The notes under the pieces are model-generated. The model was not told the DNA's origin and did no database searches. It saw nothing but the letters and a program-made list of their open reading frames with translations. Source: Salinigranum rubrum (lineage in GTDB: Archaea; Halobacteriota; Halobacteria; Halobacteriales; Haloferacaceae). From it: a stretch of DNA of 64,000 bases. The stretch is from contig NZ_CP026309.1 in NCBI RefSeq assembly GCF_002906575.1, positions 3,968,001 through 4,032,000 of the forward strand. Direction: 5' to 3'. Positions 43,917 to 54,946 of this stretch are shown in pieces (position 1 is the first letter of the stretch; every line of letters begins with the position of its first letter). The position numbers were made by a program, and so were the translations under genes.

Positions 43917-45194
43917 ATGGAAACGCAGGAATCGTACCCCCTCGACGTCGAGGCCATCCGGGAGCAGTTCCCGATCCTCGGCCGGAAGGTCGGCGGCGAC
44001 CCGGAGACGCCCGGGGAGGGACCCGACGACACCGTCCCCCTCGTCTACCTGGACAACGCCGCGACGAGTCACACGCCCGAGTCGGTGGTAGAGGCCATCT
44101 GCGACTACTACCGCGGCTACAACTCGAACGTCCACCGGGGCATCCATCACCTGAGCCAGGAGGCCTCGGTCGCGTACGAGCAGGCCCACGACCGCGTCGC
44201 CGAGTTCATCGGGGCCGACGGGAGAGAAGAGATCGTCTTCACGAAGAACACCACGGAGTCGATGAACCTCGTCGCCTACGCGTGGGGTCTGTCGGAACTC
44301 GGCCCGGGCGACTCGGTGGTGCTCACCGAGATGGAACACCACGCCTCGCTCGTGACGTGGCAACAGATCGCGAAGAAAACCGGCGCTGAGGTCCGGTACA
44401 TCCGCGTCGACGAGGACGGCTACCTCGACATGGACCACGCGCGCGACCTCATCGACGACTCGACCGAGATGGTCTCCGTCGTGCACATCTCGAACACCCT
44501 CGGCACCGTCAACCCCGTCTCGGAACTGGCGGACGTAGCCCACGAGGTCGGCGCGTACGTCTTCGTCGACGGGGCGCAGTCGGTCCCCACGAGGCCCGTC
44601 GATGTCGAAGAGATCGACGCCGACTTCTTCGCCTTCTCGGGCCACAAGATGTGCGGTCCGACCGGTATCGGCGTCCTCTACGGGAAGGAACACCTCTTAG
44701 ACGAGATGCAGCCGTATCTCTACGGCGGGAGCATGATCCGTTCTGTCACCTACGACGACTCGACGTGGGAGGACCTCCCGTGGAAGTTCGAGGCCGGTAC
44801 GCCCCCCATCGCTCAGGGCGTCGCGCTCCACGCCGCCGTCGACTACCTCGACGACCTGGGGATGGACAAGGTCCAGGCCCACGAGGACCACCTCGTCGAG
44901 TACGCGTACGACCGACTGACCGAGTTCGACGACGTCACCATCTACGGCCCGCCGGGCGACGACAGGGGTGGGCTGGTGTCGTTCAACCTCGACTCGGTCC
45001 ACGCCCACGACCTCTCTTCCATCCTGAACGACCACGGCGTGGCGATTCGCGCCGGCGACCACTGCACCCAGCCGCTGCACGACAAACTCGGGGCTGCGGC
45101 CTCCGCGCGCGCCTCCTTCTACATCTACAACACGCGCGAGGAAGTGGACGCGCTGGTCGACGCTGTCGACGAGGCTCGGCAGTTGTTCGCCTGA
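43917..45194 (+). CDS. sufS: Cysteine desulfurase SufS
   Basis: 425 residues. PLP enzyme that takes sulfur from cysteine for Fe-S cluster assembly. PLP Lys244 is in SGHKMCGPTG, a His pair lies in EMEHHASLVTW, and the persulfide Cys383 is in RAGDHCTQP. The protein is group II. The scaffold gene sufU lies 2.6 kb downstream on the same strand. A CTTTAGGTAT element just upstream may be a weak TATA box. Confidence 0.96.
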   Translation: METQESYPLDVEAIREQFPILGRKVGGDPETPGEGPDDTVPLVYLDNAATSHTPESVVEAICDYYRGYNSNVHRGIHHLSQEASVAYEQAHDRVAEFIGADGREEIVFTKNTTESMNLVAYAWGLSELGPGDSVVLTEMEHHASLVTWQQIAKKTGAEVRYIRVDEDGYLDMDHARDLIDDSTEMVSVVHISNTLGTVNPVSELADVAHEVGAYVFVDGAQSVPTRPVDVEEIDADFFAFSGHKMCGPTGIGVLYGKEHLLDEMQPYLYGGSMIRSVTYDDSTWEDLPWKFEAGTPPIAQGVALHAAVDYLDDLGMDKVQAHEDHLVEYAYDRLTEFDDVTIYGPPGDDRGGLVSFNLDSVHAHDLSSILNDHGVAIRAGDHCTQPLHDKLGAAASARASFYIYNTREEVDALVDAVDEARQLFA

Positions 45195-47760: not shown

Positions 47761-48180
47761 ATGGGCCTGGGCTCGGACATGTACCGGCAGCAGATCCTCG
47801 ACCACTACAAGAACCCCCGGAACTACGGGGAACTCGAGGACCCGACGTTCACCCACACGGGCGAGAACCCCTCGTGTGGCGACACCATCCGCGTCGACAT
47901 CCAACTCGAAGACGACGGCGAGACCATCGAGTACGCCTCGTTCAGTGGCGACGGCTGTGCCATCTCGCAGGCGTCGGCGTCGATGCTCACCTCGCGACTG
48001 CAGGGGATGACGCTCGACGAACTCGCCGACCTCGACACCGACGACGTCACGGAGATGCTCGGCGTCGACATCAGCCCGATGCGCATCAAGTGCGCCGTCC
48101 TCGCGCGACAGGTCGCCCAGGACGGCGCCCGCATCCACACGGGCGAACTCGAAATCGACCGGACGACGACCGAAGACTAG
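47761..48180 (+). CDS. sufU: Fe-S assembly scaffold SufU
   Basis: 139 residues. Cluster ligands Cys39 (ENPSCGD with Asp41), Cys66 (GDGCAIS) and Cys111 (IKCAVL) are all present, as in SufU/IscU. SufU takes sulfur from SufS or holds nascent clusters. Possible promoter CTGTTTTACAG at 47727-47737. Stops overlap by 4 bases with the convergent methyltransferase gene. Confidence 0.95.
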   Translation: MGLGSDMYRQQILDHYKNPRNYGELEDPTFTHTGENPSCGDTIRVDIQLEDDGETIEYASFSGDGCAISQASASMLTSRLQGMTLDELADLDTDDVTEMLGVDISPMRIKCAVLARQVAQDGARIHTGELEIDRTTTED

Positions 48181-49124
48181 CTTCGCTGCCCGTACAGGTC
48201 GAGGTTCCGCGCGCCGAACCGGAGTTCTCCCGTGTCTCGCTGACGCTTCCGTGCAGTGAGCCACGCGTCCACCGTCTCGTCCGAGAGCCTCCCGCGGACC
48301 GCGTCGGCGACGGTGTCGACGAGGACGGCGAGAAAGTACGCCTCGTCCGCGGGGTACGACTTGCTCTCATCGCCCGCTCCTTCGCCCGCCCGGTCCGTGG
48401 GCTCGACGCACCAGTCCGAGTCGCCGACCGAGACGAGGTCGACGCCGAAGTCGGGGAGGAGCGTTCGGAGCCGTCGACCGGCGCGCGCGCCCAGTCGGTC
48501 ACCCTCGCCGTCGCCGACCATCGTCGCGTGGTACGCGTCGAGAACGGCGTCGTCGGCCGGGTGCGGGGGCGAGAAGGCGGTGCCGCCGTCGAACGTGATG
48601 GGGAAGTAGACGGGACCGCCGGCGGCGACGCCGCTCACGAGTCGCTCGACGTCGGGAGGCGAGAGGAGGTCGACGAACGCCTGCGCGACGAGGACGTCCC
48701 ACCCCCGGGAAGCGACCGCGAGCGCGTCGCCGGCGACGAGGTAGACGTCGATGCGGGCCGGGCCGGAGAGGCGGATGGCCGCGACGGTGGTGGCCCCGTC
48801 GACGTCGGGAACGGGCCCGGGTGCGAGCGAGGGGTCGGCGAGCGACGCGCTGAACCCTTCCTCGCGCGCGGCTTCGAGAACGCGCTCGCGGGCCGTCGCG
48901 AGGAGGTCGGGGTCGGTGTCGACGGCGACGTAGGTGCAGTCGGGGAGGTCCTCCCACGAGAGGAACCGTCGGCAGAACGCCGCGGTGCCCGCGCCGGCTT
49001 CGAGGATTCGCGGCTCGCGCTGTGTGAGGACGTCGTCGCGAAACCGCGCGAGGACCTCCCGGTTCAGCGCGCGGTCGTCGACCGTCGCCTTCGCGGAGAG
49101 GTACCGCTCGAAGTCGCCCTTCAC
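48177..49124 (-). CDS. Class I SAM-dependent methyltransferase, pterin-cluster member
   Basis: 315 residues. SAM motif I ILEAGAGTAAF at about 40-50, the acidic VAVDTDPD after it, then DVLVAQAFVDLL. Last gene of the set MDR-PTPS-GT-MT; its ATG overlaps the glycosyltransferase stop (ATGA). A methyl transfer to a pterin glycoside is only an inference from this context. Confidence 0.83.
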   Translation of the reverse strand: MKGDFERYLSAKATVDDRALNREVLARFRDDVLTQREPRILEAGAGTAAFCRRFLSWEDLPDCTYVAVDTDPDLLATARERVLEAAREEGFSASLADPSLAPGPVPDVDGATTVAAIRLSGPARIDVYLVAGDALAVASRGWDVLVAQAFVDLLSPPDVERLVSGVAAGGPVYFPITFDGGTAFSPPHPADDAVLDAYHATMVGDGEGDRLGARAGRRLRTLLPDFGVDLVSVGDSDWCVEPTDRAGEGAGDESKSYPADEAYFLAVLVDTVADAVRGRLSDETVDAWLTARKRQRDTGELRFGARNLDLYGQRS

Positions 49125-50203
49125 GCTGCCTCCGGCGTGGGCGTGACTGACTCATCCGCCAACCGGGACAGGAACGACCGGACCCGCTCTGCCGTCTCCT
49201 CCCACGGCGGGTGTGCGTGGTACCGGTTGAGTGCGGCCCGGCCCATCCGGGCGAGGCGCGTTCTGTCCCCGGCGAGCGCCGACAGCGCCGCGGCGACGGC
49301 ACCCACGCCCTCGGGCGGGACGAGAAAGCCCGTCTCGCCGTGGGTGACGAGGTCGGTCGCCCCGCCCGAGTGAGTCACCACCGCGGGGAGGCCGAACCCC
49401 ATGCCTTCGAGCGCGGCGATGCCGAACCCCTCGTGTCGGGAAGGAAGCGCGAGGACGTGGCTCCGGCGGAGTACGTCCGCGAGGTCCGCCGTTTCGAGAG
49501 GCCCCGCGAGGGTGACGCGGTCGGCGACGCCGCGACGGCGACACCGGCTTCGAACCCGCGCGGCGTACCGCTCGTCCGGTTGCGGGCCGACGAGCGTGGC
49601 CTCCCACGGGTCGTCGAGCGCCGCGAGCGCGTCGACGAGCGCGAGCGGCCGCTTGCGCGGGACGACCGACCCGAGGAAGACGACCCGAAACGGCGTCTCG
49701 GTCGATCGGGCGTCGACGTCCTCCCCGGAGACGTCGGGGTCGAACTGGTCCGCCGTGGGGGGCGCAACGAGCGTCGGGAGCGGCGACGGAGAGAGCGTCT
49801 CGACCGCGCGTTCGGTCGCCGAACTCGTGCAGACGGCGGCGTCGACGCGGGCGAGAAAGCGGCGTTCGAGCGCGCGGGCGACGGGTGCTTCGGGACCGCC
49901 CTCGTCGCACCGGAGGTGGTGGACGAGGGCGACGACGGGCGTGTCGTCTCCGGGCGACCGACCACAGCGCGGGGCGAACGTCGGGTGGGCGAGTTCGTCG
50001 ACGACGACCACGTCGGCCTGGTTCGAAAACCGTGATAGCGGGGTGGTGGGGGCGTCGGCGACGGCCAGCGGATAGCGCCGCCAGGGGACCGAGTGGACGG
50101 TCACGTCGTCCGTCTCTCGGAGCGAGGCGACGAGGCGGCGGTCGTACCGGAACCCGCCGGAGGTGGTGTCGAAGTCGCCGGGGACGACGAAGGCGACCCG
50201 CAT
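49121..50203 (-). CDS. Glycosyltransferase family 4
   Basis: 360 residues, GT-B fold. N-terminal acceptor domain, then PFRVVFLGSVVPRKRPLALVD, and the donor-site HEGFGIAALEGMGFGLPAVV with the two Glu of the EX7E motif. Adjacent to the PTPS gene (stop at 50204, next start at 50203) and overlapping the methyltransferase, so all three form one operon. Acceptor unknown; a pterin is possible. Confidence 0.88.
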   Translation of the reverse strand: MRVAFVVPGDFDTTSGGFRYDRRLVASLRETDDVTVHSVPWRRYPLAVADAPTTPLSRFSNQADVVVVDELAHPTFAPRCGRSPGDDTPVVALVHHLRCDEGGPEAPVARALERRFLARVDAAVCTSSATERAVETLSPSPLPTLVAPPTADQFDPDVSGEDVDARSTETPFRVVFLGSVVPRKRPLALVDALAALDDPWEATLVGPQPDERYAARVRSRCRRRGVADRVTLAGPLETADLADVLRRSHVLALPSRHEGFGIAALEGMGFGLPAVVTHSGGATDLVTHGETGFLVPPEGVGAVAAALSALAGDRTRLARMGRAALNRYHAHPPWEETAERVRSFLSRLADESVTPTPEAA

Positions 50204-50587
50204 CTACGAGGAGGGAGCGGCGGCGTAGGCGGCGTTGGCGACGTCGTCCTCCCACATGGTGACGGTGAGGCGGTCGACGCCCCCGGTGGAGACCTCCTCG
50301 GAGAGACGCTCGTGGACGACGCGGGCGAACCGCTCGACGCTCGGGTTGTACCCCTCGAACTCCGGGAGGTCGTTGAGCGTCTCGTCCGAGTACCGCGCTT
50401 CGATAGCGTCGAGGGCGGCCTCCACCTCGTCGATGTCGACGAGGTAGTCGTACTCGTTCAACTCCTCGCCGGCGAGTTCGACCTCGACGCGGAAGTGGTG
50501 CGAGTGGAGGTCGCCCTCGGGCCCGGGATTCGGGACGGTGAGGAAGTGCTGGGCGATGAGCGGGCGGACGACGGTGACGGTGTACAT
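50204..50587 (-). CDS. Divergent 6-pyruvoyltetrahydropterin synthase family protein
   Basis: 127 residues, the PTPS/QueD fold. Zinc ligands His14 (AQHFL), His28 and His30 (LHSHH) are kept. The catalytic Cys of QueD, four residues before the first His of the pair, is replaced by Glu24. The usual Asp-His of LDHxYLN reads S-D in YSDETLND. Glu at the Cys site is known from PTPS-III members that make a folate precursor (family knowledge, from memory). So this is unlikely to be a QueD for queuosine-type bases. Upstream ATG 50587 is the only good start. Confidence 0.85.
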   Translation of the reverse strand: MYTVTVVRPLIAQHFLTVPNPGPEGDLHSHHFRVEVELAGEELNEYDYLVDIDEVEAALDAIEARYSDETLNDLPEFEGYNPSVERFARVVHERLSEEVSTGGVDRLTVTMWEDDVANAAYAAAPSS

Positions 50588-50999
50588 GCGCAGGGCGTTG
50601 GGGGAGCGGTTGTAAAGGTGCGTCTCGTGTGGTGTGCGGCCGCATCGTTCGGGACGGGGAGAGTTCGGTGGTGGTCGTGTGGGAGTGGATTCGTCGCCCA
50701 AGAGAGGAGTGACGACGCGAACACCGCACGACACGCGCGGAGGAGCCACGTCCTCCCGCACCGTTTCAGCGGTGGCGTGCGGCGAACGAACGGCGCGGAG
50801 ACACCGAACTGGGGAGGAGCGAGGCAGACACCGCGCGACCATCGTCTTCGTGCGCTCTCCGTCGTCGCGAGCCCCGAACCCGCCGACTGCATCGTGAACG
50901 CCGACGCTATCGACTGCTATCGATTCGTTCACCCACACTCGTCCCGACCGGACCATCGCCGACGGCGCCTGCGATGCGGAGCGTCGACGACAGCGAGGA
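50588..50999. other. 412-base gap without a gene
   Basis: Lies between the start of the PTPS gene and the end of the dehydrogenase gene on the same strand. No TATA box of good quality was found close to 50587 and no repeat copy is evident; short frames here look random. Confidence 0.45.
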
Positions 51000-52043
51000 T
51001 CAGTACTCGAAGAGCACCTGCAGCGCCTCGTCGGGCGACTCGTCGAGCAGTCGGTACGCGTCCGGCGCACTCTCGACGGGAAGCCGGTGCGTCACCAGCC
51101 GCGACGGTTCGAGGTCCGCGAGGAGGTCGAGCACGAGACCCATTCTCCGTTCTTTGTCCCACCGGCCCGCGTGCGCCGGGTCGATGCGCGAAACCTGGCT
51201 GGCCTGCAGGCGGATGTGGCTGCGGTGGAAGCGACCGCCGAGGCCGAGTTCGGTTGGCTTCGCGCCGTACCACGAGCCGATCACGACGCGGCCGTCGTCG
51301 CCGGTGGTATCGAGCGCCGCGTCGAGGGCGGCGGGGTTGCCGGACACCTCGAAGGAGATGTCGGCGCGGCCGTCACCGGTATCGAACGACTCGCCGGCGG
51401 CGTCGGGCGCGAGCGAGGCGTCGGCACCCAGCGACAGCGAGCGTTCCCGGCGGGCGGCGTAGTGGTCGAACGTCACGAGCTTCGAGAGCGGATGGCGCGC
51501 GAGCAGTGCCGTCGTGAGGAGGCCGACGACGCCCTGTCCGAACACCGCGGCGCGCTCGCCGATGCGGGGGCGGCCGTCCATGACGAGACTCACCGCCGTC
51601 TCGACCATCGCGAGGAGGGCGGCGTCCTCGTCGGTGACGCCCGCGGGCAGGCGGACGAGCGTGGACGGGTCGACGCAGAAGTGACTGGCATGGGGATGAA
51701 AGGCGAAGACGCGCCGGCCAACCCAGTCGTCGGTGACGTCGGCGCCGGCGGCCGTGACCCGTCCGACGGTGGCGTAGCCGTACGACAGCGGGTAGGTAGC
51801 GGTGTGTCCGAGTCCGTCGATGGTCTCGTCGAGCGGGAGGTCCGCCGGGACCTGGTCGCGGTAGACGAGCAGTTCCGTCCCCGGGCTGACCGCAGAGAGC
51901 GACGCTTCGACCCGGACCTCGTCGGAGGCGGGCGTCTCGACGGGCGTTCGGACCACTTCGACTCGGCGAGGGGCGACGAAGCGCACCCGTCGCGCCGCGC
52001 CGTCGCCGCCACCGCCGACGTCCGCTCCGCTCTCGGCGGTCAT
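51000..52043 (-). CDS. MDR-family dehydrogenase lacking the usual zinc ligands, pterin-cluster member
   Basis: 347 residues from 52043. Medium-chain fold: SPGTELLVYRDQVP near the N-terminus, GYATVGRV, then the Rossmann AAVFGQGVVGLL. The catalytic-zinc set (Cys, GHE) and structural Cys lobe of true zinc alcohol dehydrogenases are missing, so a zinc-free reductase (like the quinone or 2-desacetyl-2-hydroxyethyl bacteriochlorophyllide type) is likelier. A GCTTTACACC box (52108-52117) and a 12-codon open frame (52078-52040) come before it. Confidence 0.82.
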   Translation of the reverse strand: MTAESGADVGGGGDGAARRVRFVAPRRVEVVRTPVETPASDEVRVEASLSAVSPGTELLVYRDQVPADLPLDETIDGLGHTATYPLSYGYATVGRVTAAGADVTDDWVGRRVFAFHPHASHFCVDPSTLVRLPAGVTDEDAALLAMVETAVSLVMDGRPRIGERAAVFGQGVVGLLTTALLARHPLSKLVTFDHYAARRERSLSLGADASLAPDAAGESFDTGDGRADISFEVSGNPAALDAALDTTGDDGRVVIGSWYGAKPTELGLGGRFHRSHIRLQASQVSRIDPAHAGRWDKERRMGLVLDLLADLEPSRLVTHRLPVESAPDAYRLLDESPDEALQVLFEY

Positions 52044-52213: not shown

Positions 52214-52767
52214 TCAGACGATGCGCTCGAAGTACGGCGGCAGCCGTTTTCGGACGAGCGTGTACGGGGCCGCGACGGCGACGGCGAGCGCACAGAGGAG
52301 TCGGACGGTCCCGAGAAGAACACCAGTCCGGGCAGCGCGCCGACGAGCGTCACCGCCAGGTCGTGCGGGGAGCCGTCGTACGGCACCCAGTACCGGGCGC
52401 GGAGCCACCTCCCGCGGGCGTGGAGGTAGACCGCGTCGGGGTTGGTTCGCTCCCAGGGCCGGAGTTCCTCGCCGGCACCGAACGCGTCCATCCCCGCGTG
52501 AACCGCACTCGCAACCGTGAACGCCGCGAGTCCGACGGCGACCGGCGTCCGAGTGACAGAAGCGACGACGAGGACGGGGAGGGCGACGGCCCAGCCGAGC
52601 AGTGGGAAGTGAAGCGTCTTCCGGTGGGTGCCGACGAGGAGGTCGAGGTCGGGGAGGACACCCCCCGCGAAGCCCGCGAGCGCGGCGACGGGCGCGAGTT
52701 CCGGGGCGACGAACAGCACCGGCGTCGTGAGCGCGACGCCGACGACGGCGTGGGAGGTGACCATCAT
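52214..52767 (-). CDS. YdjM/LexA-binding-type membrane metal-dependent hydrolase, frameshifted
   Basis: Starts MMVTSHAVVGVALTTPVLF, then GGVLPDLDLLVGTHRKTLH with the His/Asp metal site of the YdjM (DUF457) family, to LPGLVFFSG near 52310. The frame then runs into nonsense, while the -1 frame continues with TVRLLCALAVAVAAPYTLV and RKRLPPYFERIV to a stop at 52214. The change is at a GGG (near 52310); one more G restores about 184 residues. It is either a sequencing undercall or a broken gene. Confidence 0.75.
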
Positions 52768-52770
52768 GCG

Positions 52771-53124
52771 TCAGTCGCGCTGGAGGAGGAGCACGAGGAC
52801 GACGATGAACCCGATCTGTGCGACCTTGTCGACGATGGCGATGGCGCCGAGTTCGTTGATCCCCTGGACCACCGTCCACGCGAAGATGACGACCTGTCCG
52901 GCGGTGAACGGGATACCGACGGCGTAGAACAGGCGTCGTCGATAGTTCAGAAGGATGGCGGCGATGCCGGCGGCGAAACCGACGGTCGCGACGAGGAACG
53001 AAATCCCGAACGCCCCCGGGAGGAAGCGGACGCCGAGGACGAGGTGGACGATTCCGGACACCGCCGCGAGAGCGACCCCGATCCAGTGGAGCGTCGTCAT
53101 CGAGTCCGTGTCGAGAGTAACCAT
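52771..53124 (-). CDS. Small haloarchaeal membrane protein, unknown function
   Basis: 117 residues with four hydrophobic segments (about 12-30, 36-55, 67-85, 95-113). Promoter TTTTTATCC at 53149-53157 gives leaderless spacing to 53124. Ends 3 bases before the start of the YdjM-like gene, so they may be cotranscribed. No family function known. Confidence 0.68.
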   Translation of the reverse strand: MVTLDTDSMTTLHWIGVALAAVSGIVHLVLGVRFLPGAFGISFLVATVGFAAGIAAILLNYRRRLFYAVGIPFTAGQVVIFAWTVVQGINELGAIAIVDKVAQIGFIVVLVLLLQRD

Positions 53125-53170
53125 ATCACATGTATAACCCACAGAACGGGATAAAAACTCGTGCGCGCCG

Positions 53171-53803: not shown

Positions 53804-54946
53804 TCACAGAAGCCCCCTGGCGGTGAGCCAGTACGACTCGTTGTACGCTAGTTTCGCCCAGTGGACCGGGCGCGACTCGGGGCGCAACTGGGGTTCGTGC
53901 GTGTAGTCGAACGAAACGAACGTCGCCTCGTCCATCCCGGCTTCGAGGAAGCAGACGACCTTGCCGTCGTACGTCGCCGTCGGGACCTGTCCGTGGACGA
54001 GGCTCGTGAGTCGGTCGGCGACGACGCTCGCCTGGTAGTGAGCGGCGCTGCCGGCCTTCGGAGCGGGCACGTCGGCGGCATCGCCGAGCGCGAACACGTC
54101 GTCGGCGTGCGTGGCTTCGAGCGTGGTCCGGTCGACTGCGACCCAGCCGTCGTCGCCGAGGCCAGCCTCACGGATCATCGGCACGCCGTCGTGCGGCGGG
54201 ATGGTGACGAGGAGGTCGTACGCGAGTTCCTCGCCCTCAAGCGACTTCAACACCCCCGCCTCGGCGTCGACCGTCTCGACGTTGAAGAACGTCTCGGCGC
54301 GGATGTCGCGCGCGTCCATCCGAGGAGCGGCCCACTCGGCGATGGTCGGCTTCCCGTGGACGCGCTGGATGGGGTAGGTGTACGTGATGTCCACCTGGTC
54401 GCGGATGCCGCGCTCACGGAGCCAGTCGTCCGCCATGAAGACGAACTCCAGCGGCGCGGCGGGACACATGTGCGGCGTCCCCACGACCGAGAGGACCAGA
54501 TGTCCCTCGGTGAAGTCGGCGAGCGCGTCACGGAGCGCGATTGCTCCCTCCTCGCTGTAGAAGTCGTGGCCCGCCTCCTGCAGGCCGGGAACCTCGTCGG
54601 GGACGATTCGCGCCCCCGTCGCGAGGACGAGGTAGTCGTACGCGAGCGTGTCGCCGCCGTTCAGCGCCAGCCGTTTTTCCTCCGCGTCGATGGCCTCGAC
54701 GCGCGAGAAGCGGAGCGAGACCCGCGGGTCGACGAGGTCGACCACCGGTCGGACGCCGTCTTCAGGGTCGCGCTTGCCGAAGGCGACGTACAGCCAGATG
54801 GGCTTGTAGACGTGCATCTCGCTCTCGTTGACGAGCGTTACCTCGACGTCGCCCGCGTCGATGTCGGGGGCGAGTCGGTCCGCGAGTCGGTTCGCCAGCA
54901 CCGAGCCTCCAGTGCCAGCGCCGACGATGACGATTCGTTGTGTCAT
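53804..54946 (-). CDS. Sulfide:quinone oxidoreductase-like FAD protein
   Basis: 380 residues. FAD motif VIVGAGTGGSVLANRL at the N-terminus, LVLATGARIVP, and the second FAD motif VFALGDAADVPAPKAG. Cys161 (PHMCPAAP) and Cys332 (VVCFLEAG) fit the two redox Cys of SQR; the third Cys of some SQRs (near 128) is missing. The YPIQR loop and C-terminal aromatic region could touch quinone. Oxidises sulfide or a sulfane-sulfur carrier and feeds the respiratory chain. Confidence 0.87.
   Translation of the reverse strand: MTQRIVIVGAGTGGSVLANRLADRLAPDIDAGDVEVTLVNESEMHVYKPIWLYVAFGKRDPEDGVRPVVDLVDPRVSLRFSRVEAIDAEEKRLALNGGDTLAYDYLVLATGARIVPDEVPGLQEAGHDFYSEEGAIALRDALADFTEGHLVLSVVGTPHMCPAAPLEFVFMADDWLRERGIRDQVDITYTYPIQRVHGKPTIAEWAAPRMDARDIRAETFFNVETVDAEAGVLKSLEGEELAYDLLVTIPPHDGVPMIREAGLGDDGWVAVDRTTLEATHADDVFALGDAADVPAPKAGSAAHYQASVVADRLTSLVHGQVPTATYDGKVVCFLEAGMDEATFVSFDYTHEPQLRPESRPVHWAKLAYNESYWLTARGLL

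Follow-up and report, generated by a model that had tools for sequence, protein, structure and literature searches.

A haloarchaeal gene cluster around a cysteine-free PTPS-fold protein as the probable counterpart of an orphan biosynthetic pathway in bacteria

Subfamilies of the 6-pyruvoyltetrahydropterin synthase (PTPS) fold are distinguished by short motifs, including the FGPAQ signature of PTPS-IV (PMC5041015, PMC5445326), and a GTP cyclohydrolase II of family PF00925 has been reported in the neighbourhood of PTPS-IV (PMC5445326). One report cites unpublished work linking PTPS-IV to F420 (PMC5041015); no paper that our literature searches found establishes its function, and SCO6650 (PDB 3D7J), from the bacterial clusters discussed below, has a crystal structure deposited in 2008 and an unknown function. 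Here we analyse a four-gene cluster in a 64,000-nucleotide stretch of the Salinigranum rubrum genome (contig NZ_CP026309.1, positions 3,968,001 to 4,032,000; hereafter the window), which encodes a dehydrogenase, a PTPS-fold protein, a glycosyltransferase and a methyltransferase. We consider it rather likely that this locus encodes, in its haloarchaeal form, an orphan biosynthetic pathway common to archaea and bacteria, directed at a glycosylated, methylated and perhaps lipid-linked metabolite derived from GTP. Being an archaeal variant of the PTPS-IV clusters of bacteria, the cluster in the window is not categorically new; it is of a functionally unassigned kind.

All four open reading frames (ORFs) were verified and lie on the minus strand, in an order that begins with a medium-chain dehydrogenase/reductase (MDR; 51000–52043; PF00107, E = 2.5e-9) and continues, after 412 bp, with the PTPS-fold protein (50204–50587; PF01242, E = 2.8e-25), a family 4 glycosyltransferase (GT4; 49121–50203; PF00534, E = 1.2e-28) and a class I S-adenosylmethionine-dependent methyltransferase (MT; 48177–49124; motif I ILEAGAGT) of a cluster-specific family. 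The PTPS stop codon (50204–50206) abuts the ATG start of the GT4 gene (50203) without a gap, and the GT4 stop overlaps the GTG start of the MT gene by 4 bp, in agreement with an earlier note on this DNA that had described a four-gene cluster on one strand with its last three members overlapping or adjacent. The family calls of that note are likewise confirmed, by Pfam for MDR, PTPS and GT4 and by predicted structure for the MT, which falls below the cut-offs of the Pfam methyltransferase models (best E = 8.7e-5). The PDB matches of the MT model (mean predicted local distance difference test, pLDDT, 88.9) are methyltransferases, many of them acting on small molecules, at 6–22% identity and with no clue to the substrate. 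The MDR, described earlier as zinc-free, contains a single Cys in the whole protein: the segment SPGTELL occupies the place of the catalytic-Cys segment, and the Cys/His/Cys zinc ligands of zinc-dependent alcohol dehydrogenases are missing. Its best NCBIfam match, which is also the closest curated MDR model, is bchC (TIGR01202; E = 5.5e-20), the model for 3-hydroxyethyl bacteriochlorophyllide dehydrogenase, but this is a distant likeness at 71.7 bits against a cut-off of 291, and to our knowledge no chlorophyll pathway is to be expected in haloarchaea.

The predicted structure of the PTPS (pLDDT 90.8) is closest to SCO6650 (template modelling score 0.82, 30% identity) and then to QueD. The T-fold, the positions of His14 and His28 and the Glu that anchors the base are common to the window protein and QueD (PTPS-I), whereas the catalytic Cys and the CxxxHGH motif are not. 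There is no Cys in the protein; in an alignment with bacterial PTPS proteins and the genome's own QueD, Glu24 stands at the catalytic-Cys position, and the zinc-ligand positions His14, His28 and His30 are retained together with Glu113, so that the earlier description of the protein as divergent is apt. The CxxxxxHGH motif of PTPS-II (biopterin) is also absent, there being no Cys, as is the ExxHGH motif of PTPS-III (folate), since Glu24 lies four rather than three residues before His28 and HSH replaces HGH. Where bacterial cluster members have the FGPAQ of PTPS-IV, the window has PGPEG, within the motif GPEGDLHSH. The haloarchaeal protein resembles PTPS-IV of COG0720 and its bacterial clusters in having MDR, GT4 and MT genes as neighbours and, in relatives, also a CDP-alcohol phosphatidyltransferase gene and a GTP cyclohydrolase nearby, but differs in its haloarchaeal motif (GPEGxxHSH against FGPAQxxHGA), in the third His that is kept, in an association with GTP cyclohydrolase III (GCH III) rather than GTP cyclohydrolase II (GCH II), and in an identity of only ∼30%. 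The base-anchoring Glu is invariant across the PTPS alignments. Because the catalytic Cys is lost while the Glu that holds the 2-amino-4-oxo ring is kept, the enzyme, judged from its sequence, probably carries out a different chemistry, perhaps on a ribosyl or ribityl side chain.

Automatic annotation labels homologues of this protein 6-carboxytetrahydropterin synthase, which would favour an ordinary QueD for archaeosine that happens to lie next to unrelated genes. We reject this candidate as extremely improbable in view of the missing Cys and CxxxHGH motif and of the strict co-occurrence with MT and MDR described below. Moreover, the Salinigranum rubrum genome encodes a second PTPS protein that has the motif CSRPHGH and whose gene is overlapped at its 3′ end by a QueE-like ORF, so the genes for archaeosine synthesis lie at another site; no que gene was found beside the window PTPS. 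The prospect, raised in the earlier note, that the protein might turn out to be an ordinary QueD has therefore not materialised.

Presence and absence of the cluster families were surveyed in 145 haloarchaeal genomes, 88 with the cluster PTPS and 57 without it. The MT was found in 87 of the 88 and the MDR in 86, compared with none of the 57 for either, and GT4 at E ≤ 1e-30 was present in 72/88 and again in 0/57. We count PTPS, MDR and MT as the core genes of the set. With Fisher p values of 5e-40 to 6e-26 for co-occurrence of the families across genomes, the association is not due to chance, nor is it only a matter of inheritance as a block, because 27 genomes have an MDR or MT at a distance of more than 5 kb or on a separate contig, and so retain the gene without close linkage. 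The four families therefore do co-occur elsewhere, and the earlier suggestion that the genes form one functional unit is supported across the genomes surveyed. In relatives, a gene close to the cluster encodes a CDP-alcohol phosphatidyltransferase, which is a common, not universal, companion (82/88 with the PTPS versus 1/57 without). The single PTPS-negative genome that has this phosphatidyltransferase (G110, locus L154) is devoid of PTPS, MDR and MT, and what remains there is GCH III, a DUF7475 gene and a short piece of a GFO/IDH–aldo/keto fusion; the locus is a decayed cluster, a broken remnant. The intact fusion, seen for example as a 661-residue protein joining a GFO/IDH/MocA oxidoreductase to an aldo/keto reductase (L029:13013-14998), occurs in 36 of the 88 cluster-bearing haloarchaea, elsewhere only as the remnant, and is absent from the window's genome.

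The same order of MDR, PTPS, GT4 and MT is found in Streptomyces fungicidicus, Microbacterium, Peteryoungia and Methylosinus, that is, the four homologous genes and the order that mark a PTPS-IV-type pathway cluster are present in the window. The Streptomyces fungicidicus cluster has CDP-alcohol phosphatidyltransferase, creatininase and ribA genes nearby, and the gene order recurs in many Alphaproteobacteria; in these bacteria RibA, RibD_C and a CDP-alcohol phosphatidyltransferase frequently accompany it. A scan of genomes with the bacterial PTPS yielded at least 564 relatives; among 86 bacterial loci that were tallied, PTPS was counted in 83, MDR in 81, MT in 78, GT in 68, RibD_C in 67, CDP-alcohol phosphatidyltransferase in 47 and RibA in 43. 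The families of the two domains are homologous by hhalign (E = 1e-75 to 4e-16), including the window GT4 and the GT of the bacterial clusters; the archaeal MDRs cluster separately from those of bacteria (94/95). In one non-haloarchaeal archaeon (L144) the order is MT-RibA-MDR-PTPS-GT. This bears on the earlier statement that no described haloarchaeal pathway matches the locus, which agrees with our literature searches, where no cluster of this gene content, pathway or product is described, but which needs amending, since the cluster is not specific to haloarchaea, its order is widespread in bacteria and the structure of SCO6650 has been solved.

The surroundings of the bacterial cluster, with CDP-alcohol phosphatidyltransferase, GT4, LPG-synthase membrane domain and sulfatase-like proteins and sometimes MdoH or FkbM, would also suit a pyrimidine-free pathway to cell-envelope components or glycolipids, with the PTPS fold co-opted to act on a sugar or polyol. 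We regard this as very unlikely, because the PTPS retains the invariant Glu that anchors a base and because GTP cyclohydrolases of two unrelated families recur near the cluster. Between archaeal c17 and a bacterial sulfatase-like protein the similarity is weak (38% probability).

Evidence for a precursor derived from GTP comes from those cyclohydrolases. In at least 36 haloarchaea, a GCH III gene is found no more than 3 kb from a gene of the cluster (36 of the 85 cluster genomes with listed coordinates, where ∼0.3 would be expected by chance), nearly always on the cluster strand, and in four genomes (G008, G009, G015 and G108) the single GCH III stands 113–210 bp before the cluster GT, away from PTPS and MDR. 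Two GCH III matches were found in 16/88 genomes with the cluster and in 2/57 without it (p = 0.009). GCH II (PF00925) takes this place in the bacterial clusters and in the one non-haloarchaeal archaeon, while neither PF00925 nor GCH III is encoded in the window. The earlier expectation of a GTP cyclohydrolase nearby thus holds for relatives, both haloarchaeal and bacterial, but not for the genome from which the window comes. GCH II yields a deformylated pyrimidine, and the products of GCH II and GCH III are both ring-opened pyrimidines. For GCH III (ArfA), the product is formylaminopyrimidine ribotide (PMC9478397). Together, the two enzymes suggest that the precursor is a ring-opened pyrimidine and not a pterin formed beforehand. 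A pterin is thus not required as the substrate, and the pterin-derived product proposed earlier does not stand as worded.

A true pterin glycoside pathway would instead start from dihydroneopterin phosphate made by GTP cyclohydrolase I (GCH I, MptA type), with the PTPS trimming or rearranging the side chain, the MDR reducing it and GT4 and MT decorating the product, as in cyanobacterial pterin glycosides. The PTPS fold with its pterin-anchoring Glu fits such a scheme, and MDR, GT and MT would be suitable tailoring enzymes. We nevertheless judge it unlikely, given that the catalytic Cys is absent and that the recurrent neighbours are GCH III and GCH II and not GCH I, for whose proximity no specific search was made.

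In the Streptomyces cluster, RibA (L047:14479-15138) reads LRAMALQ, with Met at the Tyr position, and is adjoined by a creatininase gene, in both respects like the SCO6655-type GCH II with a creatininase neighbour; SCO6655 itself appears in the literature as a GCH II for which expression and predicted flux are anticorrelated. A RibA with Met in place of Tyr stops at the formylated product, like GCH III. The alphaproteobacterial cluster RibAs differ from the SCO6655 type in keeping Tyr (MRAY), as does the RibA of the non-haloarchaeal archaeon, and Met for Tyr as a general rule for cluster RibAs was accordingly discarded, Met having been seen only in Streptomyces. A creatininase relative, BrbF, can deformylate the formylaminopyrimidine product (PMC9478397). 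One common pyrimidine pool thus appears to be fed in different ways in different lineages. Creatininase was rejected as an archaeal marker, being present in 145/145 genomes and hence uninformative.

Gene content, order, co-occurrence, cyclohydrolase adjacency in relatives, homology between the domains and loss of the catalytic Cys are observed; alongside them we infer a substrate, a chemistry, an order of steps, a product (including its sugar) and a lipid linkage as follows. The pathway would begin with the opening of GTP, by GCH III in haloarchaea or GCH II (RibA) in bacteria, which would give a 2-amino-pyrimidinone ribotide in formylated or deformylated form, and the ribityl form would arise through the RibD_C reductase in bacteria and probably through general riboflavin enzymes in haloarchaea. 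The cysteine-free PTPS-fold enzyme may then use its conserved Glu to hold the 2-amino-4-oxo ring while acting on the side chain, with the retained His cluster available for a metal, and the zinc-free, BchC-like MDR could oxidise or reduce a carbinol of that side chain. GT4 would add a sugar and MT a methyl group. The CDP-alcohol phosphatidyltransferase, which most relatives have but which was not detected in this genome, may join a phospholipid-type group.

Riboflavin-type enzymes (GCH III, RibA and RibD_C) as neighbours, a cluster GCH III that is often the only copy in its genome, and the unpublished link between PTPS-IV and F420 cited in PMC5041015 would also be consistent with a side function in supplying riboflavin or F420, the PTPS-IV-like enzyme enhancing or controlling the pyrimidine branch that both share. 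However, 57 of the 145 haloarchaea have no cluster, yet CofG is present in 145/145 and GCH III in 141/145. We know of no place for GT4, MT or CDP-alcohol phosphatidyltransferase in riboflavin or Fo synthesis, and we hold such a side function to be quite improbable. A core role in F420 synthesis was rejected, since every one of the 145 genomes has CofG but only 88 carry the cluster, so that the cluster's presence does not track CofG.

Several observations weigh against the proposed GTP-derived pathway. The only GCH III of the window's genome is far off (C1:1646970), so that the cyclohydrolase link rests on relatives; archaeal GCH III (ArfA) has, in addition, a role in riboflavin synthesis. By match counts, the adjacent GCH III is the only copy in ∼22 of the 36 genomes and must therefore also serve riboflavin, and its adjacency could reflect shared precursor supply or regulation. 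No RibD_C was seen in haloarchaeal clusters, the cluster-family CDP-alcohol phosphatidyltransferase is not recognisable in this genome at E ≤ 1e-8, and GT4 is missing at E ≤ 1e-30 from 16 genomes that have the PTPS. The 412-bp gap may mean that the MDR is transcribed separately, and a pterin made by GCH I is a possible substrate.

Upstream of the MDR lie two further minus-strand genes. A DUF7475 protein (52771–53142; PF24287, E = 7.4e-10 for a longer ORF), probably a membrane protein, is a probable accessory member: at E ≤ 1e-15 it was found in 82/88 haloarchaeal genomes with the PTPS and 2/57 without, and its gene is close to the cluster in many loci of relatives. DUF7475 thus tracks the cluster, which suggests a role in the same process. 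Between it and the MDR, a YdjM-like membrane protein (52214–52767; PF04307, below cut-off) is a possible accessory gene, with a homologue near the cluster in three loci (L027, L028 and L029) and, in locus L055, a nearby gene annotated 'metal-dependent hydrolase'.

The enzyme family to which PTPS-IV belongs as a subfamily is well studied, and the haloarchaeal genomes supply for PTPS-IV a strict co-occurrence set of MDR, PTPS, MT, GT4, CDP-alcohol phosphatidyltransferase and DUF7475, which, with the hint as to the precursor, makes the question testable in a genetically tractable, cluster-bearing haloarchaeon. If the proposal is true, it would reveal a common and overlooked metabolite of archaea and bacteria and a first role for DUF7475, and many proteins now labelled '6-carboxytetrahydropterin synthase' would have their annotation corrected. 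More tentatively, and with more doubt than confidence, the product may represent an unrecognised class of glycosylated, methylated and phospholipid-linked pyrimidines or pterins, which haloarchaea, Actinomycetota and Alphaproteobacteria would make by a single conserved route from formylaminopyrimidine ribotide that unrelated cyclohydrolases provide (GCH III in archaea, an altered GCH II in Streptomyces), with new chemistry in the cysteine-free PTPS.

In the window the cluster is flanked on the plus strand by genes for a SufU-like scaffold (47761–48180) and a SufS-like cysteine desulfurase (43917–45194), which look like ordinary Fe–S assembly genes. A sulfide:quinone reductase-like flavoprotein is encoded at 53804–54946 on the minus strand; its best NCBIfam match is a type III selenoprotein subtype model (E = 3.9e-104, below cut-off).

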